From Clonostachys chloroleuca (taxonomy: Eukaryota; Ascomycota; Sordariomycetes; Hypocreales; Bionectriaceae), in assembly GCA_037952775.1 (NCBI GenBank), contig JBANAY010000004.1, positions 11,842,001 to 11,906,000 of the forward strand: a DNA stretch of 64,000 nt, in the 5' to 3' direction. How positions within the stretch are numbered: the first letter of the stretch is position 1; each line of letters begins with the position of its first letter. Below are positions 9,006 to 54,277 of this stretch, piece by piece. Position numbers and translations under genes: made by a program. The notes under the pieces are model-generated. The model saw nothing but the letters and a program-made list of their open reading frames with translations. It made no database searches and was not told the origin of the DNA.

Positions 9006-12000
9006 ATGTCGAGCATGATATGGCAAATTGTGCTTCTAGCACTTGGGTAGGCGCTCGCTTGAAAGCAATTTCCCCAATGTCGTCGATTAACACTTTCTAC
9101 CAGGTTAACTTCGGTTCTTGCGCAGGATAGGACGGTGACTGTGACGAAGACTATCACGGCTTGCGGCTCGGCATGCTACTCTACCCTTCCTGAACGCACG
9201 TTAACCGTATACATTTGCACCACTTCGACTACACGGACCGGTATCTTCAGCCCTCCGTCTCCTGGGCATAGTTCTACCCCCATGCCCTCGGAAACTATAT
9301 GGACCGAGACCATGCCTTCATTTACACCCGGGCCGCCAGCGTCATCACTTACGACTCTGTCCCAATCTGTGAGCAGCAAGCCAGGCCAACCAAACCGTCC
9401 AGGTCCTCCCTCTTCTACCACTTCCTCCAGCTCAGGGTCCCAGGGCCAGACTCAAAGCACCCGTACCGCTTCGTCGGGAACGCCATCTCCAACAGGCCCT
9501 TCCTACTCAATTACCCTGTCAAAGCCCACGTCAACGAGTGGGAGCACAGCCGAAAATTCTTCGATGAATACATCCCAAACAGGGTCTTCCCCAAGCGGAA
9601 GACCAAGTAGCACTTCATCGCCAGACTCAAACTCCTCCTCAGCCCCCTCTACCAAGCCTACCTCCCCGAGTACATCTCCGCCTGGCACGCGCGATATCAG
9701 CAGTACGGGTATTCCCACTTCCAGTCCAGGAGACCGGACGACAACAGTAAAGATTAGTTCGACCAGTTTTATCACGGTCTCCAAGTATACAACCGTCAGC
9801 GTGTCAAGCCCCGGGGTTCCTAACACATCGAGCGATGCAGGGTCCAGCCTCAGCGACAACTCAACAACAGGGAAGTCGGATGCAACCCTTCCAACTAGCA
9901 CATCTATCCCGTTAGGAAGTTCTACCGGATCCAGTCAAACTACGAACGTCTCCAGTTCTAATTCGATTTCTGGCTCCACGAGCTACCCAAGCTCACCAAC
10001 AGGCTCAGTCCCCGGGACGTCACGAACATCAGTTGTTTCTCCAACAGGAAGCCAGTCCGTAACGGGATCCACAAACTATTCTCGCCCTGGCTCCTCTACT
10101 ACTTCTCAGGCGAGTGTTGAGACTTGCACTGAGAGTACCAAAACTCCATGTTACTCGAATACGAAGACGCAGCCTTCGGCAGCCAGTAGTAACAGCTCAC
10201 CTACGGCACCTACTACAGGTCTTACTTTCAGCATACCAACTGGTAGCACACCCAGTGCGCCTACAACAGGGCCGACCTTGACGACACCCAACAGTTATAC
10301 AACAGAGACAACCTCAGGCACGCCAACCGCACCCACGACTGGTCTAACTTTTACTACTCTATCGATGTCTACAGGAAGCTCGACCTTCACTCCGCCGACG
10401 GCTCCCACCACCGATCTGACATTCAGTAATCCAGCTGAAAGCTCAACCCGTTTGACTTCAAGGATGCCAACAGTCCCTACCACTGGATTGACTTTCAGCG
10501 CATCTAGTTCTTCTACCGTAGATCTGAGTTTCAGCAGATCAACCACGCCGACAGCAGGCCTGACCCTCACCACACCGGCAGCGCCAACGACAGGTCTGAC
10601 CCTTAGCGCACCAACGGGATCTACGGGATATACGAGTTTCACTGCACCAACAGCCCCTACGACGGGTCTAAGTTTCACTTCCCCCAGTAGTTCTACAGTA
10701 GATCTGAGGTCAAGCACATCAACGGCGCCCACGACGGGATTGGTGTCCACTACCCCAAGTGCTTCGACAATAGACTCTACTTCAAGTGCACCAACCGTGC
10801 CCACGACGGGCCTGACGTTCACTACCCCAGATACTTCTATGATAGATCTGACTTCGAGCACTGCAACAGCGCCTACAACAAGGCTAACTTTCACCACACC
10901 CGGCGTTTCTTCAATAGATTCGGTGTCGAGTACACCAACCGCACCGACAACAGGCCTAAATTTCACTAGTCCCAGTGCTTCGACTGTAGATCTGAGTTCA
11001 AGTATACCATCCGCGCCTACGACGGGCCTGACCTTCTCAGCACCAACTTCCTCTACACCAAGCCTGACTACTAGCACCCCGAGGAGCCTTAATACCGGTT
11101 CATCTAGTATTCATACAACCTCTATGTCAGATACTACATTGCAATCACTCTCCACCTCAACAGGAATTGGGAAAACTTCTTCAAGTAGCTCACGCTCAGA
11201 CATCACATCACCAGATAGCTTGAGCACTCATACTGATTCCTCAGAAACCTCTTCCCGTTCAAGTACAGGGGCGTCATCACTCACACCATCTACATATCCG
11301 AGTAATGTAATTACCGATTCAATTTCCAATTCCAGAACAACACAAACGACGGACTATTCACGGCCAGCCACCACTTCAAGCCATGGTTCGTCAAGCCAAC
11401 AGCTATCATCGCCACCATCTTCCACGGTGTCCTCAGTTTCTCAAACCGAAAACTTTTCCTCGTTTACATCCAGTAGCTTCACCCAGGCGTCCAGTCAATC
11501 CATAACATCTCAGGTTCATTCTAGCAAACCTTCCACTGAGGTTAACTCTACACCGACATCTTCTACGGAAGTATCGAGTTCTAGAAACGAAAATAGGTCA
11601 TCCTCGCAAATTACCACCTCATTTCAGATCACCATTTCTACGACATCCGATGTTCAGTCATCTCCAACATCTCGGCCGGCAACGCCTTCTCTGAGTTCTA
11701 GTTCCTCTTCGGTTTCGGCTTCTTCGGACAAAACACCAATATCTACCACATCTCGAGGATCTCCGACTGGTTCTACATCGACAAGCTTGGGTGATTCAAC
11801 GAATCTATCCAGCACCAGGTATACAACCACTGGAGATGAGAAATCTTCCACTATTAGCACTAACTCATCCGCATCAACTACCACTGGGGTCCCCTCTAGC
11901 TCGAGCAGTAGTTCTTCATACAGCAACTCTACTAGCATGACTTCGGGTCTAAGCTCTTTAATTTTATCTTCTTTCACAACTTCTACTAGTACTGGGATGG

Positions 12001-12433
12001 GCACGACAAGTAATGGGTCAATGTCAACACCCACAGAATCAACGAGCTCAAGTGACGCAGCAAGGCCTGGTACAAGTTCGAGATCTACACCAAGCACCAT
12101 GCGATCTTCAGCTGGAACCTCAACCCCAACAACCTTATCCTCGTCTTTCACCTCACAAGGGACTCCCTCCTCGGGGACTGTGGTATCATCTACCCCAGCT
12201 ACCAGCACCGGGGACTACAGTTTTGGCCTCTCGACCACTGATTCAACAGGAGGGCGGACCACATCGACTTCATCCAGTCAAACTTCTTCAATTTCTTCTA
12301 CCCCGGGTAGTTCCACGAGCCCAAGCAGACAAGAATCAAGCACGGTTTCCTCGGCTTCACAGTACCTCCCCCGCCGGCTTATGGACATTTGCCCCCCGAC
12401 TACGGCCACACCCTGACCACGGTACGAATCTAA
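9006..12433 (+). CDS. Secreted Ser/Thr-rich repeat protein, cell-wall or adhesin type
   Basis: Exon 1 (9006-9046) encodes MSSMIWQIVLLALG. An intron at 9047-9103 (57 bp, TTAAC branch, CAG) joins it to LTSVLAQDRTVTVTK, completing a signal peptide that probably ends near VLAQ. The long exon from 9104 encodes about 1,000 residues dominated by Ser, Thr and Pro, as expected of a heavily O-glycosylated wall or surface protein. Four cysteines lie near the N-terminus (TACGSACYS, VYICTT) and two more in ETCTESTKTPCYS. Residues encoded at about 10200-11050 form 13 tandem repeats. The 3' end is ambiguous: unspliced, the frame stops at 12416; a possible 56-bp intron (12307-12362) would give a Pro/Tyr-rich tail ending at 12433. 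I see no GPI-anchor signal, but a changed 3' end could supply one. Confidence 0.75.
10195..11060 (+). repeat. Thirteen tandem repeats of about 66 bp (22 aa), core APTTGLTF
   Basis: The core APTTGLTF or a close variant (VPTTGLTF, APTTDLTF, TPTAGLTL, APTTGLNF, APTTGLVS) occurs 13 times, mostly every 22 codons. The stretch between cores often reads TTPSASTVDLTSS-like. Codons differ between copies, so the array is old or diversified rather than a recent perfect expansion. Confidence 0.85.
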
Positions 12434-17657: not shown

Positions 17658-19416
17658 CTAACCTTGTGACAAGGAGACAACAGCCCACTTGCCGTGCCAT
17701 GCCCACTTTCGAGCGCCGGTCTCGATGTCGCCGCCGATCTTCTTCAGCTCCTCATCTTGCCCAGGCTTGAGGCCGACGACGACATCAGCCTTGCAAGTTC
17801 GCAGGGAGAGGACATTGACGCCCGAGCCGGGACCCAATGGGCCGAGAGCCTGGGGGAAGGGAGTGGTGGTATCCCAGTGAGCCTAGAAAAGTCGCAACAA
17901 GTTAGAAATGATTTCGCCTCAATTGCCAACCAGGGATGTGTCGAAACTTACATCGCCAGTCAGCTTTCTGTAATTAAGGTCACCCTTGAAGATGACAAGC
18001 TCAGCAGGCTTAAGCTCTTCGTGTAGCTCAGGGGCCTCCTTAGGGAGACGCCAGAAGCTGCCACCACGGGTCCAGTACCGGTTAGGCACCAGAGTGATCT
18101 GGCCATTCTTGTATTCCGAAGCCCAGTCCTGGTGGACAAAGAGGAGATCCTGCTCCTCCTTGGCGGTGAGGGCGACTGGGACCTTGCCCTGAGCCTTCTC
18201 GTCGTCGTTTGGAGTCTCGAAGAAACGCTTGGGGTCCGAAAGAGCGTCGAGTGTGGCAGTCCAGTCACTGGGCAGAACGTCTGAGACGAACCACGGGATG
18301 GACTTGGGGCGGAGAACGATCTGGGTGGCCAAGCCGGTGGCGAGGAGGAAGCCGCCGAGGATAATGTCAACGTAAAGCTCGAAGCCGGCGTTGTCGAGGA
18401 CAAAATCGATTCTTCGCTCCTTCTTACCCTCGTCGCGGGCCTTCTTGAGAATCTCATAGGCCTTTGGGAGGTCATTGACCAGAATGTTCTGCTCTGCGGC
18501 CTTGCGAGCCTCTGAGCCCTGAAGCTTCTGGATGTCTTCGTAGGTCATGTTAGTCAGAAGGGAGAGATCAGTGGCGTTTCCCCAGAGGCAAATCTCGAAG
18601 AATTCCTGGAAGAGAATCTTCTCAGCCTCAAGGTTGTGAGTCTTCTCCTTGTCGGCCTTGAGATCGGAGACCAGCTCCTTGTACCGCGAGGCTAGCTCGA
18701 GGACAGCATTTCGAGATGTACGGAAAGTGTCAAGCTTCTGGATGGCGAAGAGATCATACTCCTTCCAGTGCTTGGTGAGATTGAAGAAAGTGCTAATACG
18801 TCTATTAAAGTGCCCCCACTGGTCAGCTTCACAGAGAAAGACCAGTAATAATATAGGTAGCCCAAAGGATGTCTTACCGGTACATGTAGCACTCGGCGAA
18901 GAGCCATGTGACGTCCAACCAGGAGGGATTTCCTCGGTCTTGGATTTCTTTGTTGTAAGCAGCAACCTCGTCGGGGAACTCGTCGTTGACAATAGGCCTA
19001 GGGAGGACGTTAGTTCGGTGTCGCCTAGGCAATTGTAGTGATTGGAGCGGCGTACGTCAACTTGGCGTCGTTCACCACCTCGTCCTTGAGGGTGGTGAGC
19101 TGCTCAATGATCTTCTTGCCCTCGGCCTGCTTCTCAGCACCTTCGGCCTTGGATGTGGACTTGGTGATGTCCTGAATAGCTTGGGTCTGGAATGTCGAGT
19201 CAGAATTCGGGGCCAATTGAGTCGCTGGAGGAAGATAAAGGGGCCAATTCTACGAACCAGGATGGTAGGCCATCGCATACGGACTGAATCGCTGGCGAAG
19301 GACTTGGGGTCCGAGGTGATGGACTGGGCTGAAACGACCGAAGATGATTAGCACATTCTGTATCCAAACTAACGACGGGATGGAAGCCACTCACGGGTCT
19401 TGGTATCGTACTCCAT
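17658..19416 (-). CDS. DUF89/ARMT1-family damage-control phosphatase
   Basis: Metal-dependent phosphatase of the family that includes yeast YMR027W (Hrt2) and human ARMT1, thought to remove damaged or excess sugar phosphates. Six exons: 19416-19395, 19328-19258, 19186-19056, 18997-18878, 18801-17952 and 17882-17658, totalling 1419 bp and 472 residues, close to the yeast protein. N-terminal RMRWPTILTQAIQDITK and KKIIEQLTTLKDE fit the helical domain. The core has the metal-site motifs DNAGFELYVDIILGGFLL and VIFKGDLNYRKLTGD followed by AHWDTTTPF. The exon-2 donor is the weak GTTCGT. The small first exon encodes only MEYDTKT plus one base. Presumably cytosolic; no targeting signal is seen. Confidence 0.9.
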
Positions 19417-29186: not shown

Positions 29187-31123
29187 AGGGGTTTACTCAG
29201 AGACTTCGCCGACTACTTCATGATTGGAGTGAGTCCGCGCTTTTGATATATGATAGGGTTAGTGTTTTGAATTCAAGACTTCTATTCTTCGCGATTAGCT
29301 TTGTGCTACCGCAAAATGCGTGATGATTTGTTGTGACAATTCGTTCTCATCATATTGCCCAATTGCCCGGCATCTGAACGGATAGTCCACGGGTAGGCAT
29401 GATGTGTATGATTGATTGAACATCAACTGGTATTACCTACATATTTGTGAGTATCAGTAAGAACAACACACGAACTAGCTTGTTGAGGCTTGAAAGGGAG
29501 GAAGTGAAAATCCTCATTGTTCGCACTTCCTTCAGATTTGCCCTTGTTTTCGAAGATGGAACGAGCCATGGATATATTGGTATGATCTCTGATAGTTATT
29601 GAATAATCAATGTATTGGGAGACAGCGAAGTGAATTATGATAAAGGAATAGGAGCAAATGATCCGTTTCAAACAGATTGGCGTCTTTAGACAGGAAACAG
29701 ATCAAAAAGCCTACTTGTAGTTATAGAGGATGGATTACGCGACTGATTACCATGCTCGACACGCCCTGCGACTTCAAGGTGCACATATACACCGGGTTCA
29801 GTAAGAGACTGAGAAACACATTGTTCGTTTTCCTCACAGTGAATAAAATAATCTCAAAGCGTAAAAATATCATCCAGCTTCCAACACTCTCCCACGGCAA
29901 CCATCTATGCGACCGATATATTCCTGTACTATGATTACAGAACCGATAATTACCTAGCGACTGCAGATGTAACTTTATCGTGATATCATAGCAGACGCAA
30001 TACTACATAAGCTATTGCTAGAAGAGAAAACAATATCTCCTGATGGTCTATATGGTTGGTCCATCCATACTATAGAGGAAAACTCCGCAATCACATCTGC
30101 AGGCCCTCGGCTGGAACCTTCCTTCTAAATAAATTAAACAGTGCCGACTTCTTTCTTATAAGTTCTACCGCATTAGCTTTTGCTTCTTCGCTGGTTCTAA
30201 GTCTGTGGGTCAAACAATTTGGCTTCTATTGGACGGATTCTGGAAAACCAAGGTTGAAGGGATAACTATTGATCACTAATGTTCTCTAGAATGTCACCCT
30301 ATCTTCATAGGGAATCGTTTATAATGTCACGAGGCGTAAATAGGTGCGCCCTCCAGAGCCTGGGTAGTCACAAACCCTAAACCAATCTTGGATTCTTCAT
30401 TCGCTTCCCCGGTCCCCTAGCAATGTAGAGGGGTTTTAGTGCTCGTCCATCCCCCTCCCCCCACAATGTTTAGCTTTCATCTCACTCATACCTTGACCCA
30501 ATATGTCAAGCGAAATATAATCGTGTTATTTTTGGCCATATGAAAACCTCTCGAGTTAGGCTGGGTCCTCCTCGTATTTGTGCACTCCTCTATGGTCTCT
30601 ACGGATTGGCCATCACTCTCGTTCACTTCAGAGACGACTTACAATGCAGGGGTATCTCTTCTTAGTGAACTTGGTCGTCTCGTAATTTGTACGTCTTATT
30701 TAGTACAGCGAATCGGATTGCAAGACTCTCATTGTGGCGCAGGAGCTAGACTGACTCGGGGCCTGGAATTATTCAGATCAGCACCGTTGTGCCCCAGTCC
30801 GGGGGCACAACACCCTTAACCTAGTCTTCAGCTCCCCCATCATCGACTCAACGCGGAGGTGGGCCATGGGACTTAGGCCACGCTCAGAACATGGGGACTG
30901 GGCACCCACTAACTTCCCCGGAGCGCGCTACCTTCGCAGTAGCAGACAACTATTCCCCTTCTGGTGAAGGATGCTACTACTAGTCTTTCTAAAATCAGGT
31001 TGGAAGTGATCAGGGATGGGGGGAGGGTTCTACCATGGTTAAAAAGACGGGGAGATCCCGAGTTCAGTGGGCTGTATGCGTTGCTTCTTTCTTGGTATCT
31101 TGACCCCAAATGTGGCTGGTAAC
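29187..31123. other. Intergenic, no gene seen
   Basis: About 1.9 kb with only short unsupported reading frames. No RNA gene or repeat was recognised. Confidence 0.5.
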
Positions 31124-32338
31124 ATGGCGGCCTTCATGGATGTCTCCGGAGGGAGACTTCTTAGGAGGATGACTGAGGATATCTATTCCTCCGAGGATGT
31201 TCTGGTTCTGGTAAGTGCTTGTCTCCTTCTCCTCCTCTCATGTCTCAGTTGGTCGGCTGCCAAAACCCACCCAAAAGAGAAATGTGCTAATTGCCCCCTT
31301 TCTCTTGCCGCGCAGATCGCCACGGTCCTATCCATGTACAACGCCATCGAACTCCTCGTCCTTATATTCCTTAACTTTAAGCGACGCAGCGGCCTGTATT
31401 TTTGGAGCATCTCCCTCGCCTCCTTTGGAATCATCCCCTACTGTATCGGATGGATGCTTATCCAATTCCGCTTCAGCCATGCGTGGGTGGGTATGATCAT
31501 TGATTCCATTGGATGGGTCTTGCTGGTTTCAGGTCACTCTGTGGTTCTGTACTCGAGGCTTCACCTGGTTCTTCAGAACACGACCATTCTGCGGGGCGTG
31601 CTGGGCATGATCATTGTCAACGGCATCGTCTGGCACCCTGCCATCACCGTCCTTCTCTTCGGTTCGGCCTACGCAACCGGTGATACTAATGTAGTCTTCA
31701 ACCATGTCTTTAACATCCTAGAAAAGGTGCAAATGACATGCTTCTGCGTCCAGGAGTTCATCATTTCTGGCCTTTACATATGGAAGACGATCGAGATACT
31801 CAAAACAGCCTTTGGCAGCAAGAGGGTATTCCTTTGGAAGCTGTACTCCATTAATGTGTTCATCGTGGTCATGAACATAGCTCTCCTCGCCATCGAGTAC
31901 AAGAGCTTGTTCCTCTGGGAGCAGGGAGTCAAGGTCATTACATACTCGGTTAAGCTGAAGCTAGAATTTGCTGTTTTTGGGCAACTTATCGAATTTGTGC
32001 AGCACCGCACAGGCAACACGTTGAGCGACCCGACGGGTGTCAACACAGGCGCATTTGTCGAGCTCTCTGGTAGCCGGACAAAGAAGGATACGAAGGCCCG
32101 GTCGATGACAGGCAAGGGGGAGGCGATTCACATGGAGGATATCAAGACGAATGTGGCATCGACCACGGCGACAGGCAATAGTTTTTCCGTACCGGGCACC
32201 TTGGATCACGGCCACAGCCAGATTAAAGTCACCACGAGGATTGACGTAGATAGCAACAGGGGTAGCCGTGAGTCCGGAGACAGCGATAGCACGCGCCATT
32301 TGTACGAGGGTGCTATCCAGGAAATTGCGAGATCTTAG
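31124..32338 (+). CDS. Fungal seven-helix-type integral membrane protein (DUF7703-like)
   Basis: The protein has about seven hydrophobic helices, for example ELLVLIFLNF, FWSISLASFGIIPYCIGWM, VGMIIDSIGWVLLVSGHSVV and LGMIIVNGIVWHPAITVLLF, then a polar 100-residue cytosolic-type tail. The pattern, including the SGLYIWKTIEILK segment, matches fungal membrane proteins annotated as DUF7703; function is unknown. Start is uncertain: ATG 31124 is chosen, and an in-frame ATG lies upstream at 31076. The stretch 31211-31315 has a GTAAGT donor, a TGCTAAT branch and a pyrimidine-rich CGCAG acceptor. It is exactly 105 bp with no stop, so splicing or retention both keep the frame; splicing joins SEDVLVL directly to IATVLSMYNAIELL, the more family-like form. 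It converges on the four-domain fusion gene. Confidence 0.75.
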   Translation: MAAFMDVSGGRLLRRMTEDIYSSEDVLVLVSACLLLLLSCLSWSAAKTHPKEKCANCPLSLAAQIATVLSMYNAIELLVLIFLNFKRRSGLYFWSISLASFGIIPYCIGWMLIQFRFSHAWVGMIIDSIGWVLLVSGHSVVLYSRLHLVLQNTTILRGVLGMIIVNGIVWHPAITVLLFGSAYATGDTNVVFNHVFNILEKVQMTCFCVQEFIISGLYIWKTIEILKTAFGSKRVFLWKLYSINVFIVVMNIALLAIEYKSLFLWEQGVKVITYSVKLKLEFAVFGQLIEFVQHRTGNTLSDPTGVNTGAFVELSGSRTKKDTKARSMTGKGEAIHMEDIKTNVASTTATGNSFSVPGTLDHGHSQIKVTTRIDVDSNRGSRESGDSDSTRHLYEGAIQEIARS

Positions 32339-32735: not shown

Positions 32736-35700
32736 TTAAGCATCACCAAATACTAGTAGGCTTTCAATCTTAACATCACCAAAGCCTTCACGATGCAGTA
32801 ACGCTCGTCCGCCATGTACGGGAAACTCGGCAACAACACTGACGGTGATGTCCTTGACAGTGACACCGACGCTTTGCAACAGCTGCAACACTGCGCAAAG
32901 TGTCTTCCCAGTGGCAAGCACATCGTCCACCACAACCACTGTTGACCCTTTGGAAACCACATTACTGCCCATCTCCATTACCTTAATCTTTGAGCCAGTA
33001 GGCCCTAAATTTGAGATATGCGATGGAAGCTTGGACATGGATACAGTGGGAGGAGGCAGTTTGCCAACCTCTCGGATAAGCGCCAAGCGCACATTGACCC
33101 TCGCAGCTAGAGCTGATGCAAATACAAAGCCACCAGCTTCACAACAAACTATCGTTTCAACCCGGGTCCAGTCACCTGAAAAATGAGTTTTCAGTAGAGA
33201 TGTACATAAGGATAGCCCATCTCGTAGTTGAGAGATGCCCAGTACATCACGAAACTTGATGCCGGGTCGTGGAAAGTTTGATATCGACCGTACCATGTCG
33301 GAAAGGCGATCCAGATCCTTTTCCAAGAATGGAAAGATTTGATCGTGGGCAAATTTGCTTATTGATTCCTTTCCAGTTACGTCATTGTTCATGACGAGAT
33401 CAGGTCGGTAACTTGGAACTGTGGATTTCGATTCATCGTCATGAATCTTATCATGAATCCAGTTGCCACAGTGAACCTCATTGTTGTCTTGGATTTCTCG
33501 ACGAACTCGCCGCGTATCTTCCTTGGCTTGGACGCGCAGCTCGAGCAGTTTGCTGTTTGGTACCAGTTGCGAAAAGGTCGCAACTGGTGCCTCGTCTCTC
33601 ATACCCGTGATGAACAGTACATCTACATCTGAAGCATTGCGTACCACTCTTATAAATTGATCCTCTGGAAGTTGAGGTCTTATTTGCACCTGTTCATGGA
33701 AAAACTGTGTCAATGCTCGTCGATGCTGCTCCTTGTATCCACGATCGCAGAGGAGACGGTTCAGATCGGCACCAGTGGCCGCTGCATATTCTTGTTTCAT
33801 CACCTCGCTGATGCTTACTGCGCGTGCCTCAAGTCTCTGAGCATTGAATAGAGAAGCCCAGAAGGTTGCACAATAGTCTTTGCCGGCACCGCTTTTGCCT
33901 GTGACAAGAATAATGAGCTTCGGCCTTGTGGATAGTTGAAGCGGACATGCATAAGCCAAAACGTTATACGGGTCCAAAAGAGATTTGAGGCGGGATAGAC
34001 GTGGCTGATTCGACCCAAAGGCAGCTCTAGCTAGGGGTGCATCTCGAGGGTCTGGCCCAAGGTCTGCACCGTATGCTCCGTTACTTAGAGGCAACAAGCC
34101 CATAGCAATTTTGTAAACCCATTGTATGGCCTCTTGAGCTGTAGCAGTTCCGTCCTGATTCCTAGGCCAGACGCCAGTTATAACACAAGCAAAGTCCCAG
34201 TCTCGACAGCCAAAAGCAGAGGCATGGCCCATAAGGTCATCGATCGCCCCGCCACCTTGTAGTAGATGAAGGTAACAAAGTCTGGAGGGCCGAGATTTTA
34301 GAGCCGACACCAGGATATTGTGGACATCTGGAGTCCCAATATACTTTAAGAATATGCATCGCTTGAATGAGGAGGTCTTTCCACTGCCGTGGCCGCCGTG
34401 CATTACGGATACATACATCTCGGTGTCAAACAGACCAACGCCGTCGACAATCTGGCGGTGATGTTCGCCTCCAAGAATTGCATATTCATTCTTGGATATT
34501 TCCAGAGGGTGCTTGGCCGTTGCGGACTCGAATATTGTCACCCCAAGACAAAGCCGATCATTATCCCAAAACAAATATCCATCTACGGAACAGTTTCGGG
34601 TGAGCTTTGTGGCTACTTGGTCTAGATGACCAAGCCTATGCTGTGGCTCATCATCAAGTGAGAATATCCAGTTCCGGACTGAATAGCTCAGAGCAGCACA
34701 GGACTTGACAGTGACGCTAACCACGATGCCAAAGTTTGTTCCGGCGCCTTTGATTGCCCATAACAAATCCTCTGCGTTGTCGGGGCGTATAGAACCGACT
34801 GGTCGACATTGAGCTGGTACATGGCCAATATGAATAATCCTTCCGTCGTCAACGGTGACCAAGACAGCACCTACAATTGCGTCGCACGTCAACCCGTGTG
34901 ATCTAGCCATGTGGCCGAAGCCGCCTTGAAGCCAGAGTCCCGCACCTACACTCGGCCGGGAGCCCAGTGGTACAGTCAAACCTGCTGATGCGGCCTTGCG
35001 GATGATATCACCAGTGTTGCAGCCAGCTTCCGCAAGGATCCATGGACCGTGATCAGACCTGGGGTCCCCTATTTCGTCGTCGGAAGAGACAATGTGTACT
35101 TGATTAAAGGCAGCCATATCAATTGATACAACATTTGGCCACAGGCAATGCCCGCTATGGCCCCCACCGATCACGGTCAAGCCGACCTTGCAGGCCAAAG
35201 CCCATTGGACGCAAGTTTGGATTTGTTGAACATCCTTTGGCACAACAACAGGGACGGGATGGCGAGAATAAGCCTCTCGGTTTTTAACTATCCTCTGCCC
35301 ATCACTCAGTGGTACACGTTTGGTTAGGGCTGGTAGCATAGTCGCATCTCGGGTAAAGGTCACCATGACGTTGGGCGAGCTAAACACGAGATACTCTGGA
35401 TGGTCTTGGTCGCGACGAGCAAGCGTACAGCACACTTCGCGCCACCTGAGTCGCACGACTTCATCCACATTAATGTCCTGCATGACAAGACCCGCAATGA
35501 GAGGTGTGAAACAGTCCAGTATCTCAGGGACATTTTGGATGCGGCTAATTCCGGTAGGGAACGAGGCCGTCTTATGGCACACTAAGTCGTCAAGTTGTAG
35601 AACTCCGTCACGATGAAATACCACAATCATCCCGCTCTCTGGTCGTTCAGCAAGCATATATCTAGCCTCTTTTAGAACTTTGTCCTTGAACTTCATGCCG

Positions 35701-36182
35701 TACATGCTGTGGCAAAAGAGAATGATGTCGAATTTCTCATCAAAATGGCTAGCACCAACGTCGCTATCTTCGCTTCCATCATCCAGAGTGAAAGGAATTT
35801 CTCGAACATCGGGCGGGCTTTCTGAACAAGGAAAAGGGTGCGAGGTCAGCCACTGTTTCAGTGATTGAAAAAACAGTGTGTTGGGCTCCAACGCAACATA
35901 TTTTCTGATCTTCTGCCCAATATGTTTAGATAGATCTCCAAGTATGCTTTTCGGACCTGGTCCGATTTCAAGCACTGAAATAGTACTGCGAGATTTAAGA
36001 AAATTATCTAAGAGGAGTTCTAGTTGCGGGATGATGAAGTCCTCGTATATTGACTTATCCGAGCACCGTCTTATGATGTCGAACCCAGCTCTGTATTGAG
36101 CATTGGATAGAGGCTTCGTTGGGGACATCATGGCCTGGGCTTCCTGCCTCAGAGCCGACTTCAACGTTTGAAGAGTCGCCAT
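32736..36182 (-). CDS. Four-domain fusion: methyltransferase, FAD oxidoreductase, PMVK-like kinase, APRT-like phosphoribosyltransferase
   Basis: An intronless 1148-residue protein with four recognisable enzymes in line. Residues about 1-265 are a class I SAM methyltransferase (motif I SVLEIGPGPKSIL near 68). About 300-745 is a BBE/GOOX-type FAD oxidoreductase: GGGHSGHC near 337 holds the His often linked covalently to FAD, LQGGFGHMARSHGLTCD follows, and the usual DPYNVLAYACPL closes it. About 752-945 is a P-loop kinase (VTGKSGAGKDY near 757) whose LKEQYA-like EVMKQEYAAATG, LLCDRGYKEQHRR and FITGMRDE blocks resemble animal phosphomevalonate kinase. About 955-1148 is adenine-phosphoribosyltransferase-like: NFPRPGIKFRDV, EVGKLPPPT and the PRPP loop VVVVDDVLATGKTL. 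All key motifs look intact. It is divergent from GTP cyclohydrolase I. I infer a multistep enzyme for a base- or pterin-derived compound; substrates are unknown, and no targeting signal is seen. Confidence 0.85.
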   Translation of the reverse strand: MATLQTLKSALRQEAQAMMSPTKPLSNAQYRAGFDIIRRCSDKSIYEDFIIPQLELLLDNFLKSRSTISVLEIGPGPKSILGDLSKHIGQKIRKYVALEPNTLFFQSLKQWLTSHPFPCSESPPDVREIPFTLDDGSEDSDVGASHFDEKFDIILFCHSMYGMKFKDKVLKEARYMLAERPESGMIVVFHRDGVLQLDDLVCHKTASFPTGISRIQNVPEILDCFTPLIAGLVMQDINVDEVVRLRWREVCCTLARRDQDHPEYLVFSSPNVMVTFTRDATMLPALTKRVPLSDGQRIVKNREAYSRHPVPVVVPKDVQQIQTCVQWALACKVGLTVIGGGHSGHCLWPNVVSIDMAAFNQVHIVSSDDEIGDPRSDHGPWILAEAGCNTGDIIRKAASAGLTVPLGSRPSVGAGLWLQGGFGHMARSHGLTCDAIVGAVLVTVDDGRIIHIGHVPAQCRPVGSIRPDNAEDLLWAIKGAGTNFGIVVSVTVKSCAALSYSVRNWIFSLDDEPQHRLGHLDQVATKLTRNCSVDGYLFWDNDRLCLGVTIFESATAKHPLEISKNEYAILGGEHHRQIVDGVGLFDTEMYVSVMHGGHGSGKTSSFKRCIFLKYIGTPDVHNILVSALKSRPSRLCYLHLLQGGGAIDDLMGHASAFGCRDWDFACVITGVWPRNQDGTATAQEAIQWVYKIAMGLLPLSNGAYGADLGPDPRDAPLARAAFGSNQPRLSRLKSLLDPYNVLAYACPLQLSTRPKLIILVTGKSGAGKDYCATFWASLFNAQRLEARAVSISEVMKQEYAAATGADLNRLLCDRGYKEQHRRALTQFFHEQVQIRPQLPEDQFIRVVRNASDVDVLFITGMRDEAPVATFSQLVPNSKLLELRVQAKEDTRRVRREIQDNNEVHCGNWIHDKIHDDESKSTVPSYRPDLVMNNDVTGKESISKFAHDQIFPFLEKDLDRLSDMVRSISNFPRPGIKFRDVLGISQLRDGLSLCTSLLKTHFSGDWTRVETIVCCEAGGFVFASALAARVNVRLALIREVGKLPPPTVSMSKLPSHISNLGPTGSKIKVMEMGSNVVSKGSTVVVVDDVLATGKTLCAVLQLLQSVGVTVKDITVSVVAEFPVHGGRALLHREGFGDVKIESLLVFGDA

Positions 36183-37067
36183 GATTGCGATTTGATAGAG
36201 AGAGGTATATGGTGAAGCTTGAATGACACAAATCTGCGCGGTATTGAAAACGTGTGTGGCAATTTTTGAACGAGCTTGTGTTTGCGGATTGATGAATCGG
36301 AATGGAATGGTTTGTGAAGGCTTATATATCTTTTTCTTTCAATTTCTTCTCCTTTTAACACTAGGCCCTATCATGCTTCGGAGTCGATTAGCCCATGCAG
36401 ATTATTGAAGCTCAACACCGCGTTGGCCTCTCTAGCCCAATGTGCAGTAGATGGTCTATCCACGGAAAGTTTGCTAAGCATTGTCCAATTAATTAAGACC
36501 ACGTAGAAGACCACGCAGGAGGTACGGACTCTATCGACAGCCGGTGAGTGTCTGCCTACTAGATAAGGTCGATGGGGTTGGCCTCCTGCATAACTTGATG
36601 CGCACTTTTTAATGCTTATTATCTCACCGAGCCCGGAAATGAAATTATCCGAGAACTTTTGTGTCACATCTACACCATCTCGAAGTCGTGGAACCGAGTA
36701 TTAGGCAGCAACTTTGCATGACACCGGAGTGCACATGAATGATAGTCGATTCAAGAATCTCATTGGTGCTTGGCTTAACATATGGACGGCCTCCCGCAGA
36801 AGGACATCCCGGAGGCATGCGACTCGCTGAGCTTGGGAGAAGACTGAGCAGGTAGATTCACGCCTCTGGCCGCTTCAGTCGCTGATATAATGCTCAGTTT
36901 ATTTGTCTTTTTCTGTAGTTCCAAGCTTAAAATAGAGCGCTTCTTGTAATGGTGCTACATTTATAAGCAGATCAAAGTCGTCGTTTGATTTTGTGAAGTT
37001 GAACCTTCTATTCCCTATATTCTGCATCTTGCATCTATACAGTCGTGAATCGACCTATTCCACGCCA
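36183..37067. promoter_or_regulatory. Shared divergent promoter of the fusion gene and GTP cyclohydrolase I
   Basis: About 885 bp with no gene seen. A TATA-like box for the fusion gene lies at 36321-36328 on the minus strand. The first coding exon of GTP cyclohydrolase I is itself inferred, so the exact right-hand border could shift. Confidence 0.5.
36321..36328 (-). promoter_or_regulatory. TATA-like box of the four-domain fusion gene
   Basis: TATATAAG on the minus strand, about 140 nt upstream of ATG 36182, followed downstream by a CT-poor leader. Confidence 0.5.
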
Positions 37068-38026
37068 ATGGCTATTCTAAGATGGTGTAAAACCTCTCCT
37101 AGGAAGAGATCCTACAATGACTTTAGCACCCCTTGCCTAGCTAACAACAAATCATTACCTATAAATCGTCGGTACCACAAAAGATTTGGGAGTCGGGTCA
37201 TCAAAAATGTTTGGGTTAAACCCCACCCAAAGCAGGATGCTCGGCAACGCACGCGTGCCAGGTCACGCAGCCCCATGCTAAGTATTGATGGCATAGGTTG
37301 TATGAGTGAACTACTATCTTTGTGAACTAGTTAGTATTTTTAAAGTGACTGACTGTTGCACATTTAGCTGAGTCTACCAAAGGAGCTCAAAGAGGAGAAG
37401 TCGCTGTACGTCTTGCAAAAATGGAAAGAGCTGTTCGAACTTTGCTAGAGTGCATAGGTGAGGATACCGAGCGCGAAGGTTTGAAGGACACACCTTCACG
37501 ATATGCCAAGGCCCTATTATTTTTGACCAAGGGATATCAGTCAAATGTGAAGGAGGTTGTCAATGGCGCACTCTTCCACGGAGGTCATGACCAGATGATT
37601 GTTGTCAGAAACATTGATATCTCCAGTCTTTGCGAGCACCATCTAGTTCCATTTATTGGAAAGGTAATTTTGCCATTCAATATCAGCAAAAAGAGCCACG
37701 ACTAAAAATTATATTCCTAGATGCATATTGGATATATCCCCTCCAAAATGGTCATCGGTTTATCCCAAATCGCACGAATCGCTGAAATTTTCTCTCGTCG
37801 CCTACAGATTCAGGAGCGCCTTACCGAAGAAGTTGCTCAAGCCATTGTGGATATTTTAAAACCTCAGGGTGTCGCTGTGGTTATGGAATCCAGCCATATG
37901 TGTATGGTTATTCGAGGCGTCGAGAAGACTAGCAGCACAACCTTAACTCGCTGCATGAGGGGCTGCTTTCAGCGTGAGGCTAGGTTAAGCGAAGAGTTTT
38001 TGCACCTTGTGAACGTGCGCCAATGA
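37068..38026 (+). CDS. GTP cyclohydrolase I, probable second copy
   Basis: Converts GTP to 7,8-dihydroneopterin triphosphate, the first step to folate, pterins and 7-deazapurines. The core is certain: exon 37368-37663 ([19 protein letters not shown] and [15 protein letters not shown]) joins 37721-38026 ([20 protein letters not shown]). Zinc ligands are visible: Cys and His in [10 protein letters not shown], Cys in [12 protein letters not shown]. The [14 protein letters not shown] and [13 protein letters not shown] blocks are typical. The 5' exon (37068-37296) is inferred: it carries a basic N-terminal extension and uses a weak GTTGTA donor; the three exons total 831 bp and 276 residues. Several positions differ from the strongly conserved fungal folate enzyme, which suggests a pathway-specific paralogue. 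Head-to-head with the fusion gene. Confidence 0.85.
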
Positions 38027-38606: not shown

Positions 38607-39569
38607 ATGCCCATCACCGAGCAAATTAGTGTTGAGCACTTGCAGGATGGCAGATTCGTGTCTAAATTTACACCTGTTCGGTTTGGTAATCTACGAGCAA
38701 CATACGGAGGTAATACGATCGGGGTTGCTTTCAACGCTGCAAGTCAGACTGTTCCTCCTGGCTTCTCAGCATATTCTATCCTCGGCCACTTCCTCGGTCC
38801 AGCACTAAAAGAGCACAAGTTATACTGCAAAGTCCATGATACAAGGACAACAAGGACGTTTTCCACTCGCCGTGTAGAGGTGAGCCAGGAGCAGACCGAC
38901 GGCACTGTTCGAACTTGCTTGGAACTCACTGCCGATTTTCACGCTTCTGAGCCATCCATGCTGGAGTTCTCTGCCCAGCCTACTTTGGCATGGCCCAAGC
39001 CACGGGATTGCCCAGACCGTCATGAGTATGCGCAAGGAATGCTGGACAGAGGAGAGGTCAACGAGGCGCAGATGGAAGAGTTCCGGAAGTCATTCGATGA
39101 AGACAGAGACTACTTTGAGACGAGAGTTTGCACTGGAGGCATGGCGGCTCAAAACCTCACCGGTATCGCTGGAGGACTACCAACCACCCAGGACACCATT
39201 CCTGTTACCTCCAGGGTCTCAGCTGAGTGGTTACGAGCACGTGGAACATTCACTACGCAGGCCGAGGATATAGCAGCCTTGGCATTTATCATGGACGGGA
39301 CTCTGGCTTTCCTAGCACTGACACATAATCATCTTTGGGTAGATGCTGCGGGTCCATGCGGATCTCTTGACTTTGCGCTGAGGATCTTCGTGCCGCAGGT
39401 GAAGATGGGCGACTGGAATCTGAGAGAGCGAACTGTTCATCACAGCGGGAGTGGACGAACATATGCAGAGGGACGGTTGTTTGACGAGCAGGGCAAATTG
39501 CTAGCATCCATGACGCAACAGTGTTTCATGAGGGTACTTCGGAATGAAAAGTCGGGTTCGAAGATCTAG
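38607..39569 (+). CDS. Acyl-CoA thioesterase, TesB-like double hotdog
   Basis: Hydrolyses acyl-CoA to free acid and CoA. It is a single exon of 320 residues, normal for TesB/ACOT8-type enzymes. The N-terminal hotdog has GNLRATYGGNTIGVAFNAAS followed by HKLYCKVHDTRTTRTFSTRRV. The C-terminal hotdog has DGTLAFLALTHNHLWVDAAG, SLDFALRIF and TYAEGRLFDEQGKLLASMTQ, with the Asp/Gln positions of the family. The C-terminus GSKI is not a canonical PTS1, though SKI-type tails can act as weak peroxisomal signals, so the location is uncertain. It lies in the same orientation as GTP cyclohydrolase I, 580 bp downstream. Co-membership in a cluster is possible but unproven. Confidence 0.88.
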   Translation: MPITEQISVEHLQDGRFVSKFTPVRFGNLRATYGGNTIGVAFNAASQTVPPGFSAYSILGHFLGPALKEHKLYCKVHDTRTTRTFSTRRVEVSQEQTDGTVRTCLELTADFHASEPSMLEFSAQPTLAWPKPRDCPDRHEYAQGMLDRGEVNEAQMEEFRKSFDEDRDYFETRVCTGGMAAQNLTGIAGGLPTTQDTIPVTSRVSAEWLRARGTFTTQAEDIAALAFIMDGTLAFLALTHNHLWVDAAGPCGSLDFALRIFVPQVKMGDWNLRERTVHHSGSGRTYAEGRLFDEQGKLLASMTQQCFMRVLRNEKSGSKI

Positions 39570-52703: not shown

Positions 52704-54277
52704 ATGGAAGGTAGTCACCCCGGATTTCAGTCCAGAGAACTGAGCTAACTGACGTGATTTTGAGTGCTTAGGAAATACCGGGGCTATTGTGATTGATACT
52801 GGGTATGTTTCTGCAGGACGCGCGAGACGTCTCAGTTCCCCTAATTGCGGTTGATAATCTATTCCCAGACGACTTGTCCCCCGCTAATCGTGAATTATGA
52901 AATCGGCAGGACGGATACCATCAAAGGGGGCTTCGCGAGCGGGAGGAGGCCATCAGCTGTTTTCCGTAAGTAAGCCCCGGACACTTAGCATGACGGAACG
53001 AGCTTGTTCTCTCTTGCTCTAAGACTGTAAGGAGAGTTCCAGCAGGCTTATTATCTGACAGCAACACTTATTTCTCACCGGCGCCCATCTAAGTAATTCC
53101 CCACCTGCTTTCTCATCCCAGAAGGAGGATATCACGTCCGCTTTCAGCTTCAAAAATTAGGTACAGTGCCACTTCATACTAATTGCTGTTTTTGATAAAA
53201 AAGCATTTGTCTACTTCCTGGAATGAACCTGGTAGATCGGTATTATGGGGAGGAGGCAGAGGAGCTTCGCCCCTTGTTTGACCAGAGATATCCAGTTGAT
53301 AACGGAATGATTACCAACTTCACTGACATAGAACGGGTTTGGGATTATCTTTATGAAAAAAGGCTCAAAGCCAAGCCAGAAGACCACCCTATTCTCCTCG
53401 CTGAGCCAAATGCAAGCTCAAAAGAGAACAGGGAAAAAACGGTGACGTTGTTGTTTGAGCAGTACTATGTCCCTGCTCTCTACCTTTCTATGCAAGGTGT
53501 CCTAGCTATACACCCATCAGGAAGTAGCACAGGAGTGGTGCTTGATTCCGGTACCGCCTCGACTTATGCGGTTCCTGTTTATGAAGGGTTTGCACTACGC
53601 CGCGGCATCCAACGACTGAATATCGGTGGGAAACATTTGACGGACCAATTCTTCGAAGGCTTTGCACGGGGCGGTAATAATCTAAGGACAATATCGGAGT
53701 GTAAGCTTGCCCGAAAAGTTAAGGAGGAGTACTGCTACGTTGCGCAAGGCTTCAGAAGGGAATTTCAGTTTTCACAGGGGGAAGCACCCAAAGAAACAAG
53801 CTACAAATTGGCAGACGGAAAGTCTATTACTGTTGGGAGAGAGAGGTTCATGACCCCCGAAGCTCTCTTCCATCCTCATCTTATGGGGATGAACAACGAG
53901 ATGGGGATACAGCATCTAACTTTCGGCGCTGTATTGAAATCTGATACCTCACTTCAAGATACGCTGTACGAGAACATTGTTTTGGTGAGTATTGTTCCTA
54001 TTCACTCACAGTTTGGCAAGAAAAATGCTGACTCGGCCACTTCAAGGCTGGGGGGTCGACATTGTTTCCAGGTATTCAAGACCGAATGCACTCAGAAATA
54101 ACTGGTCTCGCCCCTTCATCAGCCAAGGTCAACGTTGTTGCATCACCGGAGAGAAAGCACGCATCGTGGATAGGAGGATCCATAGTTGCATCCTTATCGA
54201 CATTCCAGAAGATGTGTGTCCTGTATGAGGAATACGACGAGGTGGGACCTACGATTGTACTTAGACGATTCTTCTAG
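52704..54277 (+). CDS. Divergent actin paralogue
   Basis: Actin fold throughout but far from conserved cytoplasmic actin. Exons supported: 52704-52710, 52772-52802 and 52910-52965 ([13 protein letters not shown] then [18 protein letters not shown]), then 53204-53984 and 54047-54277. A middle exon at about 53094-53160 is needed; the version given keeps frame (1173 bp, 390 residues), but its acceptor is uncertain. Recognisable blocks are [74 protein letters not shown] and a terminal [14 protein letters not shown]. The phosphate loop [11 protein letters not shown] departs from DNGSGMCKAGF, so nucleotide handling may differ. Neighbours to the right are decayed. It could be an actin-related protein, a resistance-type copy or a decaying duplicate. 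Confidence 0.75.

Follow-up and report, generated by a model that had tools for sequence, protein, structure and literature searches.

In a stretch of 64,000 nucleotides from Clonostachys chloroleuca (contig JBANAY010000004.1, positions 11,842,001 to 11,906,000 of the forward strand; hereafter the window), a single uninterrupted frame of 1148 codons encodes four enzyme-like domains, as judged from the frame list and from Pfam and fold searches. We tentatively propose that this fusion is an assembly line that would start from one flat N-heterocyclic base and deliver a modified ribonucleotide, and we put the probability of this at roughly 0.45. A GTP cyclohydrolase I (GCH1) gene lies beside it in divergent orientation. 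As the best explanation of the locus as a whole, held a little less firmly, an assembly-line chain may stand next to a GCH1 that is probably at most a lineage-specific booster. The parts of the fusion, in positions of the window, are as follows.

32736..36182, minus strand: four-domain fusion gene, 1148 aa, one open frame; full-length in 119 other proteins listed
35328..36182, minus strand: residues 1-285, class I S-adenosylmethionine (SAM)-methyltransferase-like domain; closest listed solved fold is human histamine N-methyltransferase
33933..35327, minus strand: residues 286-750, flavin adenine dinucleotide (FAD)-linked oxidase of the berberine-bridge / 6-hydroxy-D-nicotine-oxidase kind; PF01565, match to 2bvf, H342
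33495..33932, minus strand: residues 751-896, animal-type phosphomevalonate-kinase-like P-loop kinase; PF04275
33333..33494, minus strand: residues 897-950, variable linker
32739..33332, minus strand: residues 951-1148, APRT-like phosphoribosyltransferase (PRTase); phosphoribosyl pyrophosphate (PRPP) motif VVVVDDVLATGKT kept, EARGF changed to EAGGF, EYG loop replaced
36183..37067, no strand: divergent intergenic region of 885 nt shared by both start codons; weak short repeats only

The FAD_binding_4 domain (PF01565) was detected in the fusion at 57.5 bits (cut-off 26.4), the kinase domain PF04275 at 83 bits (cut-off 33.8) and the Pribosyltran domain at 73.6 bits (cut-off 26.3). For the oxidase part, the best sequence match among solved structures was 6-hydroxy-D-nicotine oxidase (2bvf, 2.8e-12). 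H342, a putative FAD-linking residue, was aligned with the GGH histidine of that protein and was present in 119 of 120 listed rows. The C-terminal BBE domain reached 13.8 bits in the fusion against a cut-off of 20.6, and 13 of 16 relatives matched it at E values up to 1, the best being 4.5e-4. PF04275 was found once in the genome, namely in the fusion, by profile searches read exon by exon, in which split genes can be missed. A true phosphomevalonate kinase was ruled out by the equivalog model TIGR01223 (38.9 bits, cut-off 188.15). The fungal phosphomevalonate kinase is of a different (GHMP) type. Four enzyme-like domains in one frame, as claimed in an earlier note made from the letters alone, were confirmed, three of them by Pfam, and their signature residues are invariant or nearly so.

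The PRTase part was nearest to APRT in both sequence and fold. It was nevertheless ruled out as the housekeeping APRT, since it scored 99.7 bits against 125 for NF002636 and 89.3 bits against 185.85 for TIGR01090, and the genome encodes a separate APRT. The aligned APRTs have EARGF where the fusion has EAGGF, and the EYG loop is lost in the fusion. The reading frame of the genome's own APRT, at C3:25.9 Mb, contains DARGF and EYG. A piece of 132 aa from this APRT passed NF002636 (144.9) and missed TIGR01090 (141; a partial piece) and other longer-scoring APRT models. These results bear on a salvage of purine or cytokinin type, in which the oxidase would strip off or oxidise a side group on a modified adenine, the APRT-like domain would make the nucleotide, the kinase would raise it to the diphosphate and the methyltransferase would tag an intermediate. 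The nearness to APRT agrees with such a salvage, and oxidase, PRTase and kinase make a logical salvage order. The missed equivalog cut-offs, the loss of EARGF and of the EYG loop, the normal APRT elsewhere in the genome and the lack of a cytokinin-binding Pfam domain among the matches of the fusion argue against it, and we consider it improbable.

Relatives of the fusion were taken as the best 120 of 1072 proteins found, the C. chloroleuca protein itself among the 120, and the counts of rows refer to this set unless another is named. All 120 align over 96-100% of the query, and Pfam detects the kinase, PRTase and FAD domains in each of them. In their gene models the 119 other proteins are all single chains, which contradicts, at that level, the split into separate genes that the earlier note had named as a possible refutation. 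A search of the C. chloroleuca genome found no second copy. The nearest relatives among the matches listed were in four Clonostachys species (84-88% identity), and the remaining 115 rows were 57-60% identical to the C. chloroleuca fusion.

Conservation extends over all four domains. The residues E72, G74 and G76 of the methyltransferase, G762, G767, K768, D769, Y816, K817, E818 and R862 of the kinase, and F977, D1087, G1092 and T1094 of the PRTase are present in 120 of 120 rows. Mean column conservation was 0.88 in each of three domains (FAD, kinase and PRTase), 0.85 in the methyltransferase and 0.80 in linker 897-950. Invariant columns numbered 17 of 285, 76 of 465, 26 of 146, 22 of 198 and 1 of 54 in methyltransferase, FAD, kinase, PRTase and linker, and the mean identities to the 115 non-Clonostachys rows were, in the same order, 55%, 63%, 66%, 62% and 29%. 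Because the signature sites and columns are conserved, none of the four domains looks like a non-functional remnant.

When the protein of Trichoderma viride served as a second query, 1085 proteins were found, and the best 120 of these included 22 new ones. Aspergillus cristatus and A. chevalieri were found to carry the fusion in this search, and Penicillium camemberti in the search with the C. chloroleuca protein. The carriers named in the latter search belong to classes that we take to be Geoglossomycetes, Lecanoromycetes, Leotiomycetes, Dothideomycetes, Orbiliomycetes, Eurotiomycetes and Sordariomycetes, some of the records being metagenome-assembled. Judged from these protein sequences, the fusion is a widespread Pezizomycotina enzyme, a family rather than a local oddity, and since the four-enzyme chain has been kept co-linear across many classes, it very likely has a useful role.

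That role could lie in primary metabolism, if the domains served separate housekeeping steps and were joined for shared regulation only. The identity of 70-91% among 13 rows outside Clonostachys, which span several classes, resembles what is seen for primary metabolism. Presence looks patchy, however: the 120 rows closest to the T. viride protein name only three Trichoderma species, the query included (T. viride, T. arundinaceum and T. cornu-damae), and the genome has its own APRT elsewhere. We regard such a multifunctional protein as quite improbable.

The identity of 91% between the Trichoglossum and Lepraria fusions prompted the suspicion of horizontal transfer. In a quick tree of 54 named rows, picked from the 142 rows of both searches, 14 changes of class label were needed, where the minimum is 7 and shuffled labels average 34. 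Eurotiomycetes grouped together with good support, and Hypocreales lay on one side with weak support (63). If only well-supported branches are counted, the tree still demands a minimum of 3 changes for Leotiomycetes and of 2 each for Lecanoromycetes and the remaining Sordariomycetes. Transfer, hidden paralogy or mis-binned records may lie behind this discordance, and the tree does not settle between vertical descent and transfer. A pattern search of viral contigs gave 27 matches and no relative of the fusion; one of genome contigs gave 171 matches, with a distant bacterial APRT-like match only; and of 130 matched plasmid records, the 20 listed match in the FAD part only. As to carriage as Starship cargo, no DUF3435 captain was near the fusion among the matches listed; the nearest of at least 39 on the same contig lies at 9.40 Mb, more than 2.4 Mb away.

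In the proposed assembly line, the N-terminal domain would N-methylate the ring, and the FAD domain would take a hydride from the methylated product and hydrate it, an oxidation in line with the chemistry of the FAD-oxidase family. The APRT-like domain would then add 5-phosphoribose from PRPP, and the P-loop kinase would add a phosphate or renew PRPP from ribose 1,5-bisphosphate. As candidate acceptor we suggest the folate intermediate 6-hydroxymethyl-dihydropterin, and as candidate product an asperopterin-A-like riboside of 8-methyl-isoxanthopterin, which would be freed by a phosphatase step that was not found here. To turn 6-hydroxymethyl-dihydropterin into asperopterin A, an N8-methyl, a 7-oxo and a ribosyl group must be introduced. 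These differences correspond to three of the four domains of the fusion. Asperopterin A was reported as an isoxanthopterin glycoside from A. oryzae (PMC6208954), and the literature mentioning asperopterin, as far as it was covered, names no gene for it.

The enzymes in the genome bear on the choice of acceptor. QueD/PTPS and QueC had no match at E<=0.001 in the exon-by-exon profile search, in which QueE was not searched; in controls, the two were detected in 9 and 12 of 14. HPPK was found at one locus above the cut-off, and FolB only as a sub-threshold match away from the HPPK locus. Since neither PTPS/QueD nor QueC was matched, a 7-deazapurine (preQ0) route is unlikely, and the deazapurine version offered in the earlier note loses ground. 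In favour of a pterin acceptor, the genome has three GCH1 loci, and of the routes looked for, folate enzymes alone were seen that would use their product. Even so, the pterin version of the assembly line, with an asperopterin-A-like riboside, is unlikely as it stands. More doubtful still is the fullest form, in which one polypeptide makes a complete methylated, oxidised and ribosylated pterin from a folate intermediate and GCH1 was recruited alongside in this species. If true, it would give a one-gene pathway to pterin nucleosides in many ascomycetes, lichen formers included.

Several points weigh against reading the fusion as an assembly line, and we begin with its enzyme parts. The class I methyltransferase profile scored 15.3 bits on the fusion, below the Pfam cut-off of 27, and a sequence search of the PDB with this part gave no match. 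On relatives the profile reached an E value of 3.4e-5 at best for the whole protein and 4.3e-6 for the isolated piece. Folded alone, the methyltransferase part gave a poor model (predicted local distance difference test, pLDDT, 45), and the whole-chain model was for this reason used for fold comparison with Foldseek, which covered the best 1000 chains only. The whole-chain model is itself weak, with a mean pLDDT of 60 and a predicted template modelling score of 0.34. In it, residues 28-278 were nearest in fold to histamine N-methyltransferase among the solved matches listed, at 13% identity; another Foldseek table of 50 listed matches held FAD oxidases and APRTs only, without any methyltransferase. 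The methyltransferase is the least certain and least constrained of the four domains. The kinase finds no evident place in asperopterin A synthesis. PRTases usually make N-glycosides, and asperopterin A is an O-riboside; the literature was searched for earlier cases of O-ribosylation, with no useful result. The asperopterin-producing A. oryzae strain is no longer available (PMC6208954). The substrates of all four domains are putative, being assigned by family chemistry.

The fold match of the methyltransferase may also point to an inactivation of imidazoles of the histamine type, with N-methylation, oxidation of the side chain by the FAD domain and ATP-assisted phosphoribosylation of an imidazole nitrogen. 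The model for the last step is the formation of imidazoleacetate ribotide (EC 6.3.4.8), which is ATP-assisted. The 50 solved entries listed contained no methyltransferase other than histamine N-methyltransferase, and an adjoining kinase and PRTase would suit a reaction of ATP and PRPP. The best solved match of the oxidase, 6-hydroxy-D-nicotine oxidase, is an amine oxidase acting on a heteroaromatic. The likeness of the methyltransferase is, however, at the level of fold only, within the best 1000 chains of Foldseek, no genomic neighbour indicates histamine, and the titles and abstracts covered on imidazoleacetate ribotide describe no such fungal enzyme. We give this route as low a chance as the housekeeping one.

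The GCH1 gene beside the proposed assembly line has three exons.

37068..37296, plus strand: GCH1 exon 1; start codon uncertain, alternative in-frame ATG at 37275
37368..37663, plus strand: GCH1 exon 2; PF01227 match
37721..38026, plus strand: GCH1 exon 3; PF01227 match

PF01227 was above its cut-off on two exons (134.1 and 92.9 bits), and the spliced protein retains CEHH, QER and SSHxCM, which we take to be the zinc and active-site motifs of GCH1. The neighbour of the fusion is therefore a real GCH1 gene, divergent from it, as the earlier note had stated. That note had also considered that this might be the only folate copy in the genome; this is contradicted by the profile search, which found three GCH1 loci, the neighbour included. 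The GCH1 at C4:1.06 Mb corresponds to the usual Clonostachys one: its two best-matching stretches reach 96% and 93% identity with the C. solani protein, and two further stretches that run into introns reach 82-86%. When the intergenic and GCH1 DNA was searched, that locus was, apart from the query itself, the only match, and the intergenic region held only short weak repeats. The third GCH1 (C3:20690677-20691207) has a core that is open without an intron and shares 73% identity with the GCH1 of C. solani across 231 aa; it grouped in the tree with a Podospora protein rather than with Clonostachys, with weak support (81/48). The top GCH1 match by E value was an Ascaris entry with part of GCH1 repeated in tandem, probably an artefact of the gene model.

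The GCH1 tree had 43 rows, namely 41 of 119 fungal or unnamed listed rows and two from the C. chloroleuca genome. In it, the neighbour GCH1 fell on one side of a branch (99/98) together with paralogues of Trichoderma evansii, T. harzianum, Mariannaea and Fusarium sp. LHS14.1. Its end branch was 1.96 long and its composition odd, and such rows place poorly in trees. Of 118 near-invariant sites it has changed at 22, of which 8 are in the uncertain exon 1 and 14 in the core after residue 90, compared with 6-11 in the four related paralogues and 0-3 in seven other rows. One departure is GLSQ in place of GLSK (K191Q); the lysine, presumably a triphosphate contact, is present in at least 97% of compared rows, and both PDB GCH1 chains shown aligned have GLSK. 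Because of the long branch and these departures, the lysine of GLSK included, the neighbour GCH1 may, on sequence grounds, be decaying or specialised.

Its tie to the fusion was judged from the best 120 of 7997 GCH1 relatives. C. rosea, C. rhizophaga, C. byssicola and C. solani carry the fusion and have no close orthologue of the neighbour GCH1 in this list. Their best listed GCH1 proteins are 67-74% identical and lie on contigs of 5,144,933, 371,754, 1,516,221 and 5,262,741 bases, and their fusions on contigs of 2,803,920, 841,249, 1,597,819 and 1,656,062 bases, respectively. GCH1 was thus not seen near the fusion in four of four other Clonostachys, separation being judged by differing contig base counts from annotated proteins that may miss genes, in strains that may differ. 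The four species with a related GCH1 paralogue are named in neither fusion list. As no near orthologue is listed for the four Clonostachys and the paralogue species are missing from the fusion lists, a lasting functional tie of GCH1 and fusion is unlikely, if with an appreciable minority chance, and their pairing as a conserved unit was dropped as unproven.

The same two observations favour the view, which we find probable, that the two are unrelated neighbours, a divergent GCH1 paralogue having landed or survived there in this species only. On the other side, the contig test is indirect, each fusion list is the best 120 of more than 1000 and has many rows that bear no species name, annotation may miss a gene, and a genome with three GCH1 loci but no PTPS match would be in keeping with a further pterin product. 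Unrelated neighbours are compatible with any function of the fusion, that of an assembly line included. Of what the earlier note had proposed, modification and ribophosphorylation of a base fits the domains, and the GCH1-fusion pair as a functional unit is weakly supported.

The genes around the two suggest no pathway: a DUF7703 membrane protein at 31067-32338 (plus strand) ends about 400 nt from the stop of the fusion, and an acyl-CoA thioesterase-like protein lies at 38607-39569 (plus strand). A nucleoside pathway would want a sugar-phosphate phosphatase; an ARMT1-like damage-control phosphatase is encoded at 17919-18992 (minus strand), about 14 kb from the fusion, with no link shown. Elsewhere in the window, a Ser/Thr-rich frame of 1093 aa at 9135-12416 (plus strand) has PTAPTTGLTF-like repeats, a 72-nt tandem array at 10643-10855 and no Pfam match, and its predicted product resembles cell-wall or mucin-like proteins. 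At 53223-54101 (plus strand) lies an exon of the actin family (Pfam Actin, 2.9e-62).

No protein with this four-domain order is described in the literature searched, which comprised titles, abstracts and some passages, most subscription journals being outside its coverage; the earlier note likewise named no characterised protein with this order. Since every predicted activity lies on the same chain, expressing this single gene with SAM, O2, ATP and PRPP supplied could uncover an entire pathway. Each part can be set beside a known enzyme. Compared with APRT, the PRTase part falls below the equivalog cut-offs, has EAGGF for EARGF and has its EYG loop replaced. With 6-hydroxy-D-nicotine oxidase, EncM and berberine bridge enzymes the fusion shares FAD_binding_4 and the GGH histidine, whereas its BBE domain is below the cut-off. 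It shares the P-loop GKD and YKE segments of animal-type phosphomevalonate kinase and scores far below the equivalog level of that enzyme. Histamine N-methyltransferase, the closest listed methyltransferase fold, resembles residues 28-278 without a match in PDB sequences. Cns3 of Cordyceps militaris, from the pentostatin/cordycepin cluster, joins a nucleoside/nucleotide kinase and a HisG PRTase on one chain (PMC8869658). Like the fusion, it is a fungal chain of kinase and PRTase, and it serves a nucleoside analogue; unlike the fusion, its PRTase is of HisG rather than APRT type and the parts of that source covered name no methyltransferase or FAD oxidase, the two being compared by description only (PMC8869658). 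The tubercidin cluster, as described in the passages covered, holds the GCH1 TubC and TubE, a base-PRPP transferase, in one locus, as the fusion locus does, and its route uses CPH4 synthase and the radical-SAM CDG synthase (PMC6112128). It differs in that the C. chloroleuca genome gave no PTPS/QueD or QueC match. Kinase-PRTase fusions and loci with GCH1 and a PRTase are therefore already known, and it is the four-part order that is new in the literature searched.

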